A DNA stretch of 32,668 nucleotides from an uncultured Lachnospiraceae bacterium (GCA_946630035.1 CAMOYN010000003.1:1-32668), one strand, 5' to 3'. Positions 255-11,350 are shown, counted from the stretch's first letter. Notes: generated from the sequence alone by a model not told the origin. Made by a program: numbers and translations.

Positions 255-746
255 ATGGGGTTTGGAAGACATGTGCTCACGGTGGCGGCGGGGATTTTGC
301 TGCTGCTGGGGGTGCCTCTGATGTGCACGGAGAGGGGAAGGGGCCTTCTCCTGTCGGGGGGTGTGGATGCCGTGAGCAGTGCCTCCGTGATTCTGGATCA
401 GCCTTCGGGGGAGTATGTGGTTCTGATCAATGGGGGGATGAGGAAGAGCCAGGAGACTCTGGAGGCCTGGAAGTCCTTTTTCGGAGGCGAGGAGATTGCC
501 TACATCTTCGAGGACATTGCCTGCTCGGTAGCGGCGGGAGACGCAGGAGCTCTGGAAATGGCCCGGAGCTTCCAGTCCCGTCTGCCGGAAAATCAGATGC
601 AGATCCGTACAGAGGACGCCACTCTTCTGATGTCAAGGGCAGATCATGGAAAATTTGATGTGCTGATCATGTCGAAGGAGTTTTCCGAGGCATATCATGG
701 GGAGACAGTGCCGAAAGAAGGACTGGAATGGATCTCCCTGAATTAA
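255..746 (+). CDS. Small membrane-anchored/secreted protein of unknown function, first gene of the fumarate reductase-like operon; contains DAVSSAS
   Basis: GGGAGG RBS 8 nt upstream of ATG; N-terminal hydrophobic segment VLTVAAGILLLLGVPLM; tightly linked to the downstream cytochrome b/FrdA/FrdB genes. Confidence 0.75.
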   Translation: MGFGRHVLTVAAGILLLLGVPLMCTERGRGLLLSGGVDAVSSASVILDQPSGEYVVLINGGMRKSQETLEAWKSFFGGEEIAYIFEDIACSVAAGDAGALEMARSFQSRLPENQMQIRTEDATLLMSRADHGKFDVLIMSKEFSEAYHGETVPKEGLEWISLN

Positions 747-769
747 AATAGAAGGCGAGGAGATCCGGT

Positions 770-1330
770 ATGAGAAAATGGAATGCACGGATCAGTGTTC
801 TGATCATGGTTTTGTTTCTGATTCATGGAATTGCCGGGGGCTTTCAGCTCATGGGCCTGATCCCGGGAGGACAGCCCATTTTCCATGTCATCAGCGTACT
901 TATGGTAATCCTGATTCTGATTCATGCGGGGATTGGCTGTAAGCTGACAGTAGATACGATACGGATCTGCCGGAAAACGGGAGTTTCCTATTTTCGTGAA
1001 AATGCTTTGTTCTGGACCAGGCGGATCAGTGGAGTGGCACTGATGATTCTGGTCTTGTTTCATATCCTCCTGTTCTGGGAAAACGGGGGAGAAGTCCTGC
1101 GCCTCTCTCTGTTTGAGGGGCCACAGCTGGCGGCAAATCTCCTGATGGCGGCTTCACTGGCGGTGCACATTCTGTGCAATATCCGGCCTCTGATGGTTTC
1201 CCTGGGAAAGGAAGGCCGTCATGTGAGCGTCAGGGATATTATGCTGATCCTGGCGGCAGTGCTTCTGTTCTGTACGATTGGCTTTGTGATTTATTATCTT
1301 CGTTGGAACGTTTTCTGGAAATATCGGTAA
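770..1330 (+). CDS. Multi-TM cytochrome b-like membrane protein (putative succinate dehydrogenase/fumarate reductase membrane anchor)
   Basis: About five hydrophobic helices with His residues inside them (LIHG, IFHVI, LIHAG, LFHIL, AVHIL); sits directly upstream of FrdA- and FrdB-like genes. Confidence 0.65.
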   Translation: MRKWNARISVLIMVLFLIHGIAGGFQLMGLIPGGQPIFHVISVLMVILILIHAGIGCKLTVDTIRICRKTGVSYFRENALFWTRRISGVALMILVLFHILLFWENGGEVLRLSLFEGPQLAANLLMAASLAVHILCNIRPLMVSLGKEGRHVSVRDIMLILAAVLLFCTIGFVIYYLRWNVFWKYR

Positions 1331-1388
1331 ACTGTGAATCAGGCATAGTGGTACCTGCGGAAAAGCAGCAGCGTAAGAGGCGGTTAGC

Positions 1389-3017
1389 ATGGATTGTGTG
1401 AATATTATCGGAGCGGGGCTGGCGGGTCTGTCGGCGGCAATGACTCTGGCAAAAAGAAATATACGGTGCCGTCTGGTGTCAGTTCAGTCTTCGGAGCGGG
1501 CGCAGTCTGTCCTGGCAGAGGGCGGAATCAATGGCGCGCTGGACACGATGGGGGAATCGGATGATGTCCGTTTTCACATGGAAGACACTTTAAAGGCGGG
1601 GGTTTATCTGGCGGATCCGGAGGCAGTGCGGGGACTTGCGGAGCATGCGCCGGAGGTGATCCGGATGCTGCGGGATCTGGGGGTTCCTTTTAATACCCTG
1701 GAGAATGGAGAAATCCGCCTGCGTAACTTCGGCGGCCAGAAAAAGAAGAGGACCGCCTATGCCAAGAGCAGCACAGGAAAGATTATTATGTCGGCGATGA
1801 TTGATGCGGTGAGGCGGTATGAAGCGGAGAGCCGGATCCTTCGGATGCCGCATCATGAGTTCCTGAAACTTGCACTCGCGTCTTCGGCGGCAGGGACGGG
1901 TGAGAGGATATGTTCCGGCGCAGTGGTCCGGGATGTCTGGACGGGAGAAGTGGAGGTGCTGCCGGGGCCGGTGATTCTTGCCGTGGGAGGAATGAATGGC
2001 ATGTTTCCGGGGATGACGACGGGAACGACAGCGAATTCGGGGGATGCCGTGGCAGCCGTTTTCCGGCAGGGAGTGCGCCTGGGAAATATGGAAATGATAC
2101 AGTATCATCCTACGACCTTCGGTATTGCAGATAAGCGGTGTCTGGTGACGGAGGCTGCCCGGGGAGAGGGCGGCCGGCTGTTCATTGAAAGAAATGGTGG
2201 CCGCTGGTATTTTATGGAGGAAAAATATCCGGAGCAGGGAAATCTGGCGTCGCGGGATGTCATTTCCCGCCAGATGTATTTTGTGATGCATGATCCTTCC
2301 TGCGGAGGACAGGTCTACCTGGATCTGACGGAGCTGGGGAAGGAGATCTGGCAGCAGCGTCTGCCGGATCTGAGGAAGGAACTGATCCATTATCTGGCCC
2401 TGGATCCGGCGAAATCCCCGATTCCGGTGGAGCCCGGGATTCACTATTTCATGGGCGGCATTGAGGTAGATGTAGGTCATCAGACGAACATCCGCGGGCT
2501 TCTGGCGGCGGGGGAGTGCTGCTGTCAGTACCACGGGGCAAACCGGCTGGGCGGAAATTCCATGCTGGGAGCCTTGTACGGGGGAAGGGTAGCGGCGGAC
2601 TCCGTGGCTGAGCAGGTTATGGAAGGAATCCGGGAAGAAACGGCGGGATCGGAGAAGGTCGGAAGCATGAATGAGGAGCTCAGAGGGGAAGAGAAAGGAA
2701 ATGCTGGGGAAATTTCCCCGGAGCTGGTCCGGCAGATTGCGGTCATCCTGGGAGATTCCTTGGGCATTGTGCGGAAGGGGGAAGCGTTGGAGGAGGCGAG
2801 GATTTCTCTGGAGAAGCTTCTGCCGCAGTGTAACAACGAACGGGAAAGAAACCGTGTGTATCTGGCGCAGGCGATGGTCATATCGGCAGAACTTCGGCGG
2901 GAGAGCCGGGGCGCTCACTACCGGTCGGATTACCCGGAGACGGAAGCCGCCATGGCAAGGCAGACCTGGGCAGAGTGGACTTCCGAAGGTGTGATGGTAC
3001 AGTTTCGTCAGAATTAA
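1389..3017 (+). CDS. FAD-dependent fumarate reductase/succinate dehydrogenase flavoprotein-like subunit
   Basis: GAGLAGLSAA FAD-binding motif, SVLAEGGINGAL, FGGQKKKRTAYAKSSTGK, YHPTT, EAARGEGG, HGANRLGGNSML. Confidence 0.88.
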   Translation: MDCVNIIGAGLAGLSAAMTLAKRNIRCRLVSVQSSERAQSVLAEGGINGALDTMGESDDVRFHMEDTLKAGVYLADPEAVRGLAEHAPEVIRMLRDLGVPFNTLENGEIRLRNFGGQKKKRTAYAKSSTGKIIMSAMIDAVRRYEAESRILRMPHHEFLKLALASSAAGTGERICSGAVVRDVWTGEVEVLPGPVILAVGGMNGMFPGMTTGTTANSGDAVAAVFRQGVRLGNMEMIQYHPTTFGIADKRCLVTEAARGEGGRLFIERNGGRWYFMEEKYPEQGNLASRDVISRQMYFVMHDPSCGGQVYLDLTELGKEIWQQRLPDLRKELIHYLALDPAKSPIPVEPGIHYFMGGIEVDVGHQTNIRGLLAAGECCCQYHGANRLGGNSMLGALYGGRVAADSVAEQVMEGIREETAGSEKVGSMNEELRGEEKGNAGEISPELVRQIAVILGDSLGIVRKGEALEEARISLEKLLPQCNNERERNRVYLAQAMVISAELRRESRGAHYRSDYPETEAAMARQTWAEWTSEGVMVQFRQN

Positions 3018-3030
3018 GGAGGAAACCCGG

Positions 3031-3750
3031 ATGCGGATAGAATTTAAGATCCTGCGGAGAGATTCGGCGGAAACCGCTGCCTGGTGGCAGGGAATTTGCT
3101 TCGAGACGGAAGACGAGAATGCTACCGTGGCGTCAGCTCTGCGAAAAATCAATGAGGCGGGAAATCTGGTGGACACAGAAGGCAGGACCGTAAAGAAAAT
3201 ACTCTGGGAGAACAGCTGTCTGCAGAAAAAGTGCGGTGCCTGTGCGATGGTGATTAATGGGAAGCCGAGATTAGCCTGTGACAGTTTCCTGCGGAATTAT
3301 CAGAAAAAAGGAAGAGGGAAGATTACGCTGGAGCCCCTGCGGAAATTCCCTGTGATTGCGGATCTGATGGTCGACCGGAGTATTTTGTTCGAAAATCTGA
3401 AACAGATGCAGCTCTGGAGCCGGGAGGAGGTCCACCTTACAGAAAAGCAGCGGGAGACGGCCTACGATGCTTCCCGGTGTCTGCAGTGTGGCTGTTGCCT
3501 GGAAATCTGCCCGAACTACCTTCCGGGAGAGTCATTCTTCGGGGCGGCAGGATTTGTTCCGGCGGCCCGGCTGATTGCGTCGCTGGAGGGAGAGGAGAAA
3601 CAAAAACTGCAGAAAGCCTACCGGGAGCATGTGTTTGCCGGGTGCGGGAAGTCCCTCGCCTGTGCAGACATCTGTCCCGCCGGGATTGAAGTGGAACGTC
3701 TCCTGGTTCGGTCCAATGCGGTCGCGGTATGGAAGAAATCGTTATTTTGA
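3031..3750 (+). CDS. Fumarate reductase/succinate dehydrogenase iron-sulfur subunit-like protein
   Basis: 2Fe-2S motif CLQKKCGACAM...LAC; CLQCGCCLEICP; CGKSLACADICP (Cx5Cx3CP). Confidence 0.88.
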   Translation: MRIEFKILRRDSAETAAWWQGICFETEDENATVASALRKINEAGNLVDTEGRTVKKILWENSCLQKKCGACAMVINGKPRLACDSFLRNYQKKGRGKITLEPLRKFPVIADLMVDRSILFENLKQMQLWSREEVHLTEKQRETAYDASRCLQCGCCLEICPNYLPGESFFGAAGFVPAARLIASLEGEEKQKLQKAYREHVFAGCGKSLACADICPAGIEVERLLVRSNAVAVWKKSLF

Positions 3751-4173
3751 TGAGGATTCCCTGGTGTACTGAAGACAGCGATTGGCCAGACGCACCCAGT
3801 GTCTGCTGTCTTCTTCCCCCAGCCAGGTGAGAAGGTTCTTCCGTTCCTCTCTCAGCTGCTGCCTCAGTTCCAGCGCTCTCTGAACTCCCTTCTCCGTCAG
3901 ACGGACATGCACTTTGCGTTTATCACCCCCGTCCCGCAGGCGTGAAATCAGATCTTTCTTTTCCAGTGCTTTCAGAATATTGGCGATCCGGCCGGTGGTC
4001 AGTCCGGTCTTCGCCAGCAGTTCCCCGGGCAGCATCTCCTGGTCGTTGGCCAGCAGACAGAGTAAAATACCGTCCTCCCCGGATGTGGAAAAACGCGCAC
4101 CCAGCTGGAAGGATTCCCGAAAATACTCTTCATGCATCTGATTGTATTCCTCGACTCGCTTATCAATACTCAT
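3742..4173 (-). CDS. MarR-family transcriptional regulator
   Basis: wHTH: GELLAKTGLTTGRIANILKALEKKDLISRLRDGGDKRKVHVRLTEKG. 3' end overlaps the frdB-like gene by 9 nt (convergent). Confidence 0.85.
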   Translation of the reverse strand: MSIDKRVEEYNQMHEEYFRESFQLGARFSTSGEDGILLCLLANDQEMLPGELLAKTGLTTGRIANILKALEKKDLISRLRDGGDKRKVHVRLTEKGVQRALELRQQLREERKNLLTWLGEEDSRHWVRLANRCLQYTRESSSK

Positions 4174-4302: not shown

Positions 4303-4452
4303 ATAGGTAGAAACAGCAACCGGAGCCTGTCCGCGGGATTGGTAGTTGCGAAAAAAACTAAGAGCCATTATAATCTCTATGCTGATGTGTTTATCTCGGA
4401 AGCAGATAAGACTCCCATCTCTGCAGGTGGAAATAACGAGAGGAGTATATCA

Positions 4453-5568
4453 TTGAAAATGAAAATAAAAATCCCGCTTATATTGTGTGCTGTGTGTCTG
4501 ATGGCGGGCTGCAGTCCGGGCAGGAGCACCACACCGGAGACCTCCGCCGGAGCCGGGGAAAGCACCATGGCAGAAAAAGCTTCCGAGGCTTCGGAGAAGG
4601 AACCGGTGGAGGAGGGGGCTGAGACAGAGGCGGTGAAGGAACTCTTTGCCATGGACACTTACATGACGATTCGTACCGTTGGTGCCCGGGCGGAGGAGGC
4701 GGCCGAAGCTGCGGCGAAGGAGATTGCGCGTCTGGATGCGCTCCTCTCCACCGGCAGCGAGACCAGCGAAATCTCTGTTCTGAACCGGGAGACAACCGGC
4801 CAGGTGTCTGAGGATACGCTGATTCTGGTGGAGCGTGCGAAGGAATTCTGGCAGGAGACAGAAGGGGCCTTCGACATCACGGTGTATCCGCTGATGGAAA
4901 CCTGGGGATTTACCAGCGGGGAGTACCGTGTCCCGACGGAATCGGAACTGACGGATCTGCTGCAGCATGTGGACATGAATGCGGTACAGATCGACCAGGA
5001 AAACAGTCAGATATCCTTTTCCGATGAGAATGTCCGGATCGACCTGGGCGGTATTGCCAAGGGATATACCTCGGCTCGTCTGATGGATCTGTTCCGGGAA
5101 TATGATCTGAAACACGCGATCGTGAGCCTCGGAGGCAATGTGCAGGTGCTGGGGGACAAGCCCGATGGCAGTGCCTGGCGGATCGGAATTGAAGATCCCA
5201 GCGGATCCAGGGACTATCTGGGCGTTTTGGAGACAAAAGACCGGGCCGTGATCACATCCGGCGGCTACGAGAGATATTTCGAGCAGGACGGAAAACATTA
5301 TCATCACATTCTGGATCCCTCGACCGGCTATCCCGCCGAGAGCGGACTGATCTCCGTGACCATTGTGAGTGAAGACGGAACGATGGCCGACGCCCTCTCC
5401 ACCTCCCTGTTTGTCATGGGAAAAGATAAGGCCATCGCATTCTGGCAGAACCATGCAGATACCTTCGAGATGATCCTGCAGGAAGAGGATGGAACTCTGG
5501 TGATCAGCGAAGGGCTGAAAGATGCCTTCTCCACGGATATAAAGGCAGAGTTTGTATCGCGGAAATAA
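4453..5568 (+). CDS. apbE: ApbE family FAD:protein FMN transferase, lipoprotein
   Basis: AMDTYMTIRTVGARA, FDITVYPLMETWGF, RIDLGGIAKGYTS, HAIVSLGGNVQVLG, HHILDPSTGYPA, TMADALSTSLFVMG. Lipobox LMAGC. AGGAG RBS before TTG 4453 (alternative ATG 4459); the longer ORF start at 4249 is not supported. Confidence 0.93.
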   Translation: MKMKIKIPLILCAVCLMAGCSPGRSTTPETSAGAGESTMAEKASEASEKEPVEEGAETEAVKELFAMDTYMTIRTVGARAEEAAEAAAKEIARLDALLSTGSETSEISVLNRETTGQVSEDTLILVERAKEFWQETEGAFDITVYPLMETWGFTSGEYRVPTESELTDLLQHVDMNAVQIDQENSQISFSDENVRIDLGGIAKGYTSARLMDLFREYDLKHAIVSLGGNVQVLGDKPDGSAWRIGIEDPSGSRDYLGVLETKDRAVITSGGYERYFEQDGKHYHHILDPSTGYPAESGLISVTIVSEDGTMADALSTSLFVMGKDKAIAFWQNHADTFEMILQEEDGTLVISEGLKDAFSTDIKAEFVSRK

Positions 5569-5628: not shown

Positions 5629-5657
5629 TTGACGTAAAAAATATGAAATGATAGAAT
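5629..5657 (+). promoter_or_regulatory. Sigma-A type promoter
   Basis: TTGACG (5629-5634), 17-nt spacer, TAGAAT (5652-5657). Confidence 0.7.
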
Positions 5658-5659
5658 AC

Positions 5660-5710
5660 GAGTGGTTAGACAATGCAAACAAATGTAAGTCTAGCCACTC
5701 TTTCTATTTT
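5660..5710 (+). promoter_or_regulatory. 5' leader stem-loop followed by U-rich tract (possible attenuator, operator or 5' stabiliser)
   Basis: GAGTGGTTAGAC (5660-5671) / GTCTAGCCACTC (5689-5700), 12 bp with one G:U, then TTTCTATTTT; AGGAGG RBS follows at 5715. Confidence 0.5.
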
Positions 5711-5728
5711 ATACAGGAGGAAAACGTG

Positions 5729-7873
5729 ATGAAACAAAGTATTAGACGTCTGCTTGCCGGTGTGTTTATGGCCGGACTGGCATTTTCCCTTGCCCCTAAA
5801 ACGGCTCAGGCAGCAGAGAAGTATGTGCTGATGAATATTCCCTACGGAGAGTTTTATGAAGCCGAGGGAGTGTCCGGAGTAGATGCCGTGACATCTGCCA
5901 CGAAGAACAAACCCCGTACAGGAACACTGGCCGGAGGATCCTATCATGTAAATGCGGACGGCACCGATATCACAGGTGTCACTTATCCGGTAAAAGTGGA
6001 GGATGACACCATTCTGGCAAACTACACCGAAATCACAGAGGAGAGTTCGGTAGACATCACTGTTACGAACCGCGGTACGACTACTACGACGACCTACAGC
6101 GGGAAAGAGGCCCTCTTTGAAGCCCCGAGCTATGCCTACTATGTGCTGAGTGAGAAACCTTCTCACTATAAGACGCTGAAGGCCGATGGCAGTTTCTCGG
6201 CTGTGCAGGGAGAGACATTTACTACGGTCTATACGGCATCGGCCGATGTGACAGTGGGAGCCCGGCATGCAGATATTGAAATCGCCCTCAGCGGAACTGC
6301 GGGAATTGCCCAGGGAGATGCGGTGTCCGGTATTGTGCTGACCGATTCCGACGGGAAAAAGTACGCTCTGCGGCATATCGTAAATATCTGGCGGACGACC
6401 GAGATCGGCTGGAACCTGTCCGATTTTGATCTGAACGGCAAGACCATTACCAATGTCCGCTATTATACTCCCACTTCCGTGATTGATTATCCTCTGAACA
6501 TCCGTATCGGTAGTTCCGGATATGTTCTGATGAACATCCCTTACGACAAATTCTATGAGGGAGAAGGAGTTCCGGGGGTGGATGCCGTTACTTCCGCAAC
6601 GAAGAGCAAACCCAGGGCGGGTACCCTGGCCGGAGGATCTTACCATGTGAATTCCGATGGCAGCGACATCACAGGAATCACTTATCCGGTGTTCGTAAAA
6701 GATATGTCTGCACTGCAGAATTACACCCAGGTCACCGATGAAAACTCCCTGACCATCACGGTGAAACTTCGCGGCCAGGAAAATACTACGACCTATACCG
6801 GTAAGGAGACCTTGTTCGAAGCCCCCAGCTATGCTTACTATGTATTAAATGAGAAGCCGGCCCGTTACAAGGTTATGAATGAGGATGGAAGTTTCTCCGT
6901 TGTCAACGGCAGAGCCGCTTCTGTTGAAGGCGCGACCGGCGAGGTGACCATCGGCGCAAGACATGCCGATGTCGAAGTGAGCCTCAGCGGTACCACCGGA
7001 ATTGAAAAAGGAGATACCGTATCCGCCATTATCATGACGGATTCCGACGGAAAACAGTACGGTCTGCGTCACATCGCGAATATCTGGCGCGGCACCGAGA
7101 TCGGCTGGAGCAACTCGGAAATGGATATGACCGGAAAGACGATCAAAAATCTCCGTTACTATACACAGGATGCCGTGATCGATTTCCCGGTGGAAATCCC
7201 GATTGTCGAAAAACAGGAAGAGCCGAGTTCGGAAGAACCGACCTCCGAAGAGCCGACCTCCGAGGAACCGTCCTCGGAAGAACCGACCAGCGAAGAACCT
7301 GGCTCGGAAGAACCGACCTCTGAGGAACCGGTTCGCGAAAAGGAGATCGTCAAGGGAAAGATTTACACCGTAGATGACATGTTCTATCGCGTAACCGATG
7401 CAGGTAAAAATGGAAAAGGCACCGTGACCCTCATCAAAGCCTCCGAGGCAAAGAAAAATAAGATGAAGAGTGTTTCCATGCGCAGAACCGTAAAGATTTA
7501 CGGGAAGACCTTCTATATTACAGCCATCGGCAACAATGCTTTCCGCGGATTTACCAAACTGCAGGTGGTAAATATCGGAAATGGCGTAAAGAAAATCGGA
7601 AAGAGAGCGTTTGCCCAGAATCCCGCCCTGCAGACCGTCGTGATCGGAAAGAGCGTCGATACAATCGGTAAACTGGCCTTCAGCGGCTGTGATAACCTCT
7701 CCTCCCTTACGATCAAAACTACGAATCTGACGAAAGAGAAGGTAGAGGCCAAAGCCTTCGCAGGTACACCGGAGAACCTGGAAGTCCGGGTTGCCAGAAA
7801 AGTACTGAAAGCCTATAAGAAACTGTTGGTAGAAAAAGGTATTTCCGGGAATGCGGTCATTGCCTCCAGATAA
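5729..7873 (+). CDS. Secreted protein with two Tp47-domain-like repeats each bearing DAVTSATK, an SEEPT linker, and a C-terminal BspA-like leucine-rich repeat region
   Basis: AGGAGG RBS at 5715; signal peptide MKQSIRRLLAGVFMAGLAFSLAPKTAQA. YVLMNIPYxxFYExEGVxGVDAVTSATKxKPRxGTLAGGSYHVNxDGxDITGxTYPV occurs twice (from ~5822 and ~6521). C-term: IGNNAFRGFTKLQVVNIGNGVKKIGKRAF. Confidence 0.85.
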   Translation: MKQSIRRLLAGVFMAGLAFSLAPKTAQAAEKYVLMNIPYGEFYEAEGVSGVDAVTSATKNKPRTGTLAGGSYHVNADGTDITGVTYPVKVEDDTILANYTEITEESSVDITVTNRGTTTTTTYSGKEALFEAPSYAYYVLSEKPSHYKTLKADGSFSAVQGETFTTVYTASADVTVGARHADIEIALSGTAGIAQGDAVSGIVLTDSDGKKYALRHIVNIWRTTEIGWNLSDFDLNGKTITNVRYYTPTSVIDYPLNIRIGSSGYVLMNIPYDKFYEGEGVPGVDAVTSATKSKPRAGTLAGGSYHVNSDGSDITGITYPVFVKDMSALQNYTQVTDENSLTITVKLRGQENTTTYTGKETLFEAPSYAYYVLNEKPARYKVMNEDGSFSVVNGRAASVEGATGEVTIGARHADVEVSLSGTTGIEKGDTVSAIIMTDSDGKQYGLRHIANIWRGTEIGWSNSEMDMTGKTIKNLRYYTQDAVIDFPVEIPIVEKQEEPSSEEPTSEEPTSEEPSSEEPTSEEPGSEEPTSEEPVREKEIVKGKIYTVDDMFYRVTDAGKNGKGTVTLIKASEAKKNKMKSVSMRRTVKIYGKTFYITAIGNNAFRGFTKLQVVNIGNGVKKIGKRAFAQNPALQTVVIGKSVDTIGKLAFSGCDNLSSLTIKTTNLTKEKVEAKAFAGTPENLEVRVARKVLKAYKKLLVEKGISGNAVIASR
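7220..7335 (+). repeat. Coding tandem repeat (SEEPT)n linker
   Basis: Translation SSEEPTSEEPTSEEPSSEEPTSEEPGSEEPTSEEP. Confidence 0.85.
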
Positions 7874-10735: not shown

Positions 10736-11350
10736 ATGTTTATGAATCAGAAAATGCGCAGCTTCGTAACCCTGGCACTGTTGACGGCATTCCTTATCCT
10801 GGGAAACGGACAGCTTGTGGCGGCGGACCGGACCTCCGGCACCTGTGGGAAACAGCTCACATGGAACTACAAAGAAGGAGTGCTGCGGATCCGGGGGAAA
10901 GGAAGGATGAAGAACTACGACGGGTTCAATAAGGAGCTGGAACTGAAGCCGGGGCCCTGGAGAAAACTGAAAATCAGGAAGATCGTGGTGGAGGAGGGAG
11001 TTACCAGCATAGGAGATCAGGCCTTTTATGGCTTCACCGCCCTTCGCCGTGTAAAACTGCCCGGGTCACTGGTAACCATCGGAAAGAACTCCTTCGAGGG
11101 ATGCGACCATCTCACTTCGATCCGGCTGCCCCGCAATCTGCGCCGGATCGGCCTCAGAGCCTTCGCTGACTGCGGGAATCTGCGAAACATCCGAATCTCC
11201 ACCACAAAACTAACAAGGAAAAAGATCGGATTAAATGCTTTTTCCGGAACCCATACGAAAGTCCATGTGAAATGCCCGAAGCGCCTGGAAAAACGCTACC
11301 GAAAGTGGCTGATCCGGCAGGGGCTGTCGATGCATTCGGTCTGGGAATAG
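10736..11350 (+). CDS. Small secreted BspA-like leucine-rich repeat protein
   Basis: GAGGAGG RBS; signal peptide; GVTSIGDQAFYGFTALRRVKLPGSLVTIGKNSFEGCDHLTSIRLPRNLRRIGLRAF repeats. Confidence 0.8.
   Translation: MFMNQKMRSFVTLALLTAFLILGNGQLVAADRTSGTCGKQLTWNYKEGVLRIRGKGRMKNYDGFNKELELKPGPWRKLKIRKIVVEEGVTSIGDQAFYGFTALRRVKLPGSLVTIGKNSFEGCDHLTSIRLPRNLRRIGLRAFADCGNLRNIRISTTKLTRKKIGLNAFSGTHTKVHVKCPKRLEKRYRKWLIRQGLSMHSVWE

Follow-up and report, generated by a model that had tools for sequence, protein, structure and literature searches.

A candidate complex II-like redox module within P19/FTR1 iron-uptake clusters of Lachnospiraceae and related Clostridia

Introduction

P19/FTR1 iron-uptake systems are widespread in gut bacteria, and their electron source or sink and the roles of their redox partners are poorly understood. 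Clusters of this type with a flavin mononucleotide (FMN)-binding protein are already known: in P19-associated iron clusters, the genes for FTR1, P19, FtrD/DUF2318, two FtsX permeases and an ATP-binding cassette (ABC) ATPase are arranged in that sequence, and an FMN_bind or thioredoxin gene comes next (Meheust et al. 2021 eLife, PMC8238504; Liu et al. 2018 mBio, PMC6083913), and fetMP-fetABCDEF of C. jejuni shows the same FTR1-P19-FtrD-FtsX-FtsX-ABC order with an FMN_bind (or thioredoxin) gene behind it (PMC10783030). The P19 system requires redox input, the direction of which is unclear (PMC6083913, PMC10783030), and published work treats the cluster as having no transmembrane electron system of its own (PMC8238504). 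Here we analyze four adjacent genes near the start of a 32,668-nucleotide stretch of DNA ("the window") from an uncultured Lachnospiraceae bacterium (GCA_946630035.1, CAMOYN010000003.1:1-32668), which forms the 5' end of contig C3 of a metagenome-assembled genome (MAG) that is 67% complete. Unlike the known P19 clusters, those of its relatives have a candidate system of this kind built in, made up of a small anchored protein (gene 1), a cytochrome b-like subunit, FrdA and FrdB. None of the open-licence papers searched described a P19 cluster that combines a complex II-like conduit with a flavin-motif protein of the DUF6921 type.

The cytochrome b-FrdA-FrdB part of the module resembles B-type complex II and quinol:fumarate reductases such as Wolinella FrdCAB and Bacillus SdhCAB, in which FrdA and FrdB are joined to one five-helix anchor of the diheme type; a similar anchor is predicted here. 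The module differs from them by a Gln in place of the His that links flavin adenine dinucleotide (FAD), by the dedicated outer flavin-motif protein, by its iron-uptake context and by hosts that mostly have no UbiA-type gene. The combination of a flavinylation motif with a fumarate-reductase-like enzyme is also found in the flavinylated extracytosolic fumarate reductases Listeria FrdA and Shewanella UrdA. There both reside in one exported protein. In the present module the two are split, with a cytosolic enzyme and, across the cytochrome b, a separate anchored protein that bears the motif. Finally, the globular part of gene 1 shares its fold and family with DUF6921 (PF21914) and the crystal structure PDB 3NOH (RUMGNA_00914, Ruminococcus gnavus); searches turned up no report of a function, flavin or operon for the latter.

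We lean towards the view that the four genes supply a P19/FTR1 (FetMP/FtrABCD-type) iron-uptake cluster with its transmembrane redox module, that is, a quinone-independent, complex II-like conduit linking an extracytosolic flavin relay to cytosolic fumarate. Such a variant would bring together the transporter and all parts of a candidate electron path, would hint at the direction of that path, and would represent a complex II homologue working without quinones. Gene 1 would define a new class of candidate ApbE substrates, for which a crystal structure is already available.

Results and discussion

The four genes and their place in P19/FTR1 clusters

The original prediction had described a fumarate reductase-like operon led by a 163-aa protein with an N-terminal anchor and a DAVSSAS motif, with cytochrome b-, FrdA- and FrdB-like genes downstream. 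The open reading frames, including the motif codons, were confirmed through position 3750:

255-746, plus strand: gene 1, 163 aa; signal-anchor helix, linker with motif, alpha/beta domain
366-386, plus strand: candidate ApbE flavinylation motif DAVSSAS, residues 38-44; would-be acceptor Ser44
770-1330, plus strand: cytochrome b-like membrane subunit; five helices, four invariant His; Sdh_cyt 8e-4, below the cut-off
1389-3017, plus strand: FrdA/SdhA/NadB-like flavoprotein; FAD_binding_2 8e-74, Succ_DH_flav_C; without export signal
3031-3750, plus strand: FrdB-like iron-sulfur subunit; Fer2_3 2e-24, TIGR00384 over the cut-off

The homology to FrdA and FrdB stands, and homologues of gene 1 were found in Lachnospiraceae and related Clostridia. 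The idea of a stand-alone operon does not hold, as relatives place these genes inside a P19/FTR1 iron-uptake cluster. The complete genome G080 shows the gene order transglutaminase-like, FTR1 (1.8e-27), P19 (1.3e-41), FtrD/DUF2318 (PF10080, 5e-29), FtsX, FtsX, ABC ATPase, FMN_bind lipoprotein (PF04205, 1e-9), gene 1, cytochrome b, FrdA, thioredoxin-like, FrdB, DUF4418, FtsX and ABC, with PF02687 and PF00005 matched. The order from FTR1 to FrdB is found in eight assessable relatives (G080 and seven others), in some with a few extra genes inserted, and six shorter contigs agree with it as far as they extend. The FMN_bind lipoprotein adjoins gene 1 in every complete cluster. It is also the cluster gene closest to gene 1 when similarity matrices are correlated (r = 0.67), a measure too crude to rely on.

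The distribution of the genes points in the same direction. P19 is present in 13 of 397 family genomes and strong gene 1 hits in eight, all of which have P19 (hypergeometric P ~1e-13, relatedness ignored), and in 7/7 assessable genomes the two genes lie on one contig, ~5-6 kb apart. In the source genome itself, contig C3 begins in a high-copy repeat (1-254), which explains the assembly break upstream of gene 1 and leaves the genes that normally precede it outside the window. Another contig of this MAG, C76, carries DUF4418-FtsX-ABC-FTR1-P19-FtrD-FtsX-FtsX-ABC and ends inside the ABC gene. From the arrangement in relatives we infer that C76 adjoins the window in the source genome; the two are not joined in the assembly. 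An FMN_bind search of the MAG returned nothing, and the joining piece is absent from the assembly, so the lipoprotein gene probably lies in this gap. The FTR1 gene of the MAG (L011 4314-5895) is split across two frames, representing either a sequencing error or a pseudogene.

Gene 1 carries a conserved linker motif in front of a binding-protein-like domain

The AlphaFold model of gene 1 (predicted local distance difference test, pLDDT, 82.6) has an anchor helix at residues 2-24 and a globular part at residues ~50-163, separated by a linker in which residues 35-44, including the motif, appear disordered (pLDDT <50). The globular part is half of a periplasmic-binding-protein-like alpha/beta domain, with a looser resemblance to periplasmic binding proteins, and it matches PDB 3NOH both by sequence profile (E = 5e-15) and by Foldseek (E = 5e-7). 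The window protein itself scores 14.8 bits against DUF6921, under the cut-off of 26, whereas a distant clade of gene 1 matches both 3NOH and DUF6921 (1.5e-64, 216 bits). Through the 3NOH profile match, the globular part is thus placed as a distant DUF6921 relative. Members of the distant clade retain DAVTGAT behind the anchor helix, and their genes likewise neighbor cytochrome b, FrdA and FrdB. In 3NOH, the first residues of the chain already lie within the motif. The FMN_bind profile (PF04205) gave no match in gene 1, and the idea that it is an FMN_bind protein was rejected. Searches of PHROG and NCBIfam yielded no name for it, and no plasmid relatives were found.

The original prediction had proposed conservation of the motif in orthologues as a check, and this was borne out across 20 homologues at ~23-53% identity: D is present in 20/20, A in 19/20 and the final S/T in 20/20. 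The region reads D, A/T, mostly V, S/T/A, S/G, A, S/T. The D, A and S/T columns have the lowest entropy in the linker, and the adjoining linker columns vary freely. For random linkers of 25 residues with matching composition, the probability of containing the relaxed pattern is 6e-4. Mean net charge is +2.2 before the anchor helix and -0.9 after it, and the resulting positive-inside pattern is seen in all homologues. From this bias the motif is predicted to be extracytosolic, contrary to the cytoplasmic topology that the original prediction had named as a possible refutation. Gene 1 probably carries a flavin.

The cytochrome b-FrdA-FrdB part as a possible quinone-independent fumarate reductase

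The cytochrome b-like subunit shows five predicted helices with invariant H19, H52, H98 and H133, one in each of helices 1-4, and a weak match to SdhC (E = 0.003). From the helix order, H19 and H98 would face the outside and H52 and H133 the inside, as in a wire formed by two hemes. In FrdA, the dicarboxylate-site motifs H, E, R, H, R are invariant, whereas each of the 14 sequences that span the FAD-linking position has Gln there instead of His (Gln39 in the window, codon 1503-1505). Complex II relatives without the covalent FAD bond have a lower FAD potential, and they reduce fumarate and do not oxidize succinate (PMC9557727). The FAD of these FrdA proteins would be non-covalent, and by this precedent fumarate is favored as the electron sink.

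No UbiA-type prenyltransferase gene was detected in 16 of the 19 gene-1-family genomes, ten of them at least 90% complete, with 14/14 controls positive; the remaining 3/19 have one. Most hosts therefore probably lack quinones, a situation in which the cytochrome b would naturally pair with the outer flavin. A plain quinol:fumarate reductase operon lying here by chance would fit the FrdA/FrdB homology and the B-type-like five-helix anchor, but we consider it very improbable and rejected it given the fixed place inside the P19 clusters of eight assessable relatives, the 8/8 co-occurrence with P19, the missing UbiA-type gene in most hosts, the extra anchored protein and the Gln at the FAD site.

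Proposed electron path and alternatives

We hypothesize that gene 1 is held in the membrane by its single helix with the C-terminus outside, that ApbE flavinylates the linker motif, and that the FMN lies next to the five-helix cytochrome b on its outward side. A pair of hemes, suggested by the four invariant His, would ferry electrons between this flavin and the cytosolic FrdB/FrdA, whose substrate should be a dicarboxylate, most likely fumarate. On the outside, gene 1 would exchange electrons with the FMN_bind lipoprotein encoded upstream, and hence with P19, FtrD and FTR1. The preferred direction is inward, with electrons from Fe2+ oxidized for FTR1 transport passing through flavins and hemes to fumarate. 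This preference is based on the FAD-site change, on the view that FTR1-type permeases are oxidation-coupled (PMC11966278), and on two P19 clusters without gene 1, which hold an exported, fumarate-reductase-like FMN_bind-FAD_binding_2 fusion (L042 11470-13428; L044 12023-13813). A bolder version, which we offer as tentative and do not count as likely, is an anaerobic ferroxidase circuit, in which the Fe2+ oxidation that drives FTR1 is coupled through the flavinylated DUF6921-like protein and the quinone-independent complex II homologue to fumarate reduction. If true, fumarate would take the place of oxygen as acceptor in a Fet3/Ftr1-like transport.

Several observations weigh against the proposed conduit. 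Typical FMN potentials would make some of the steps uphill in either direction. The Foldseek match of the cytochrome b to complex II anchors was insignificant, with succinate:quinone reductase C subunits and cytochrome b561 at the top of the list, and no published redox data were found for gene 1 or DUF6921. Published P19 models mostly send reducing power outward. Only 5/20 homologues (L006 and the four DAVTGAT sequences) follow the strict consensus Dxx[ST]GA[ST]; the window does not, since DAVSSAS has Ser in the Gly position, so the original fit of this motif to Dxx(s/t)gA(T/S) fails at that residue. It also ends in Ser, a less favored ApbE acceptor than Thr according to a review of ApbE (PMC12052999). 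Finally, two near-complete genomes with gene 1, G278 (98%) and G421 (94%), have no detectable apbE.

The low number of strict matches and the genomes without apbE speak for the possibility that gene 1 is not flavinylated and instead serves as a structural or metal/ligand-binding subunit, with DxxxxA[ST] kept for another reason or decayed. It would suit the half binding-protein fold, which is not that of FMN_bind (3NOH is annotated as "putative peptide binding protein"), and the DAVTGVT of L037. We regard it as a less likely alternative. The D and the final S/T are invariant in both clades although their flanks differ, the linker is disordered so that conservation has no other explanation in the fold, and the distant clade has the textbook DAVTGAT. 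According to the same review, a flexible tag of seven residues is enough for ApbE, and changes of the Gly or Ala cut flavinylation to about half (PMC12052999). As for the genomes without apbE, which the original prediction had taken as potentially refuting, both G278 and G421 still hold the FMN_bind lipoprotein, a canonical substrate, with its SGAT motif intact. An assembly gap or another transferase is therefore as likely there as absent flavinylation. In L030 and L032, the gene-1 motif and a canonical FMN_bind lipoprotein occur in genomes without detectable apbE.

The same parts and gene order would also fit electron flow in the opposite direction, in which FrdAB oxidizes a cytosolic donor (succinate, aspartate or similar), the cytochrome b carries the electrons outward and the flavins of gene 1 and the lipoprotein reduce Fe3+ before uptake, as an assimilatory ferric reductase. 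This agrees with published readings of P19 systems, in which FMN-binding proteins or thioredoxins act reductively. We nevertheless judge outward export unlikely: the His-to-Gln change occurs in every FrdA sequence that spans the site and, by analogy with complex II, would prevent succinate oxidation, FTR1 permeases are regarded as oxidation-coupled, and succinate is a weak donor for FMN.

apbE and other features of the window

Beyond the module, the following features were identified in the window:

1-254, no strand assigned: interspersed repeat; 1-56 near-identical at dozens of places, 57-241 in three more copies
3742-4173, minus strand: MarR gene, convergent, between the FrdB-like gene and apbE
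~4453-5568, plus strand: apbE lipoprotein (LMAGC), candidate modifying enzyme; PF02424 3e-92
5648-7873, same strand as apbE: secreted BspA-type leucine-rich repeat (LRR) protein; two repeats, each with GVDAVTSATK
10736-11350: small secreted BspA-like LRR protein, the second in the window

The apbE gene had been placed within ~1 kb of the operon end, and its position is as described. The convergent MarR gene in between, a promoter-like site of its own at 4346-4374 and the absence of apbE from all other clusters surveyed suggest that it is a separate transcription unit outside the operon, and the proximity is particular to the window. Co-occurrence of motif and apbE, another proposed check, does not discriminate: apbE is present in 359/397 family genomes (90%) and in 14 of 20 gene-1-family genomes, so that finding it together with gene 1 says little. 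The LRR gene lies on the strand of apbE and begins 80 bp behind it, so the LRR protein may instead be the one that apbE serves. The LRR protein has no FMN_bind or PDB match, and its DAVTSAT was rejected as evidence for gene 1.

The repeat at the start of the window has 41 matching places in the MAG, the window itself included. With a core of ~56 nucleotides, it occurs at many contig ends in this MAG and is probably a main cause of the fragmentation of the assembly.

A second clade of the module

The DUF6921 (DAVTGAT)-cytochrome b-FrdA-FrdB module was found near-identical in genomes of three families, with gene 1 being 95-98% identical, which suggests a recent transfer. An integrase-like gene near the module in L038 is consistent with this. 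Where the flanks could be read, the copies of this clade (L037, L038, L048 and L049, with L050 more divergent) lie beside a heavy-metal P-type ATPase and an ArsR-type regulator. Judged from these neighbors, the module travels with a second metal-handling context.
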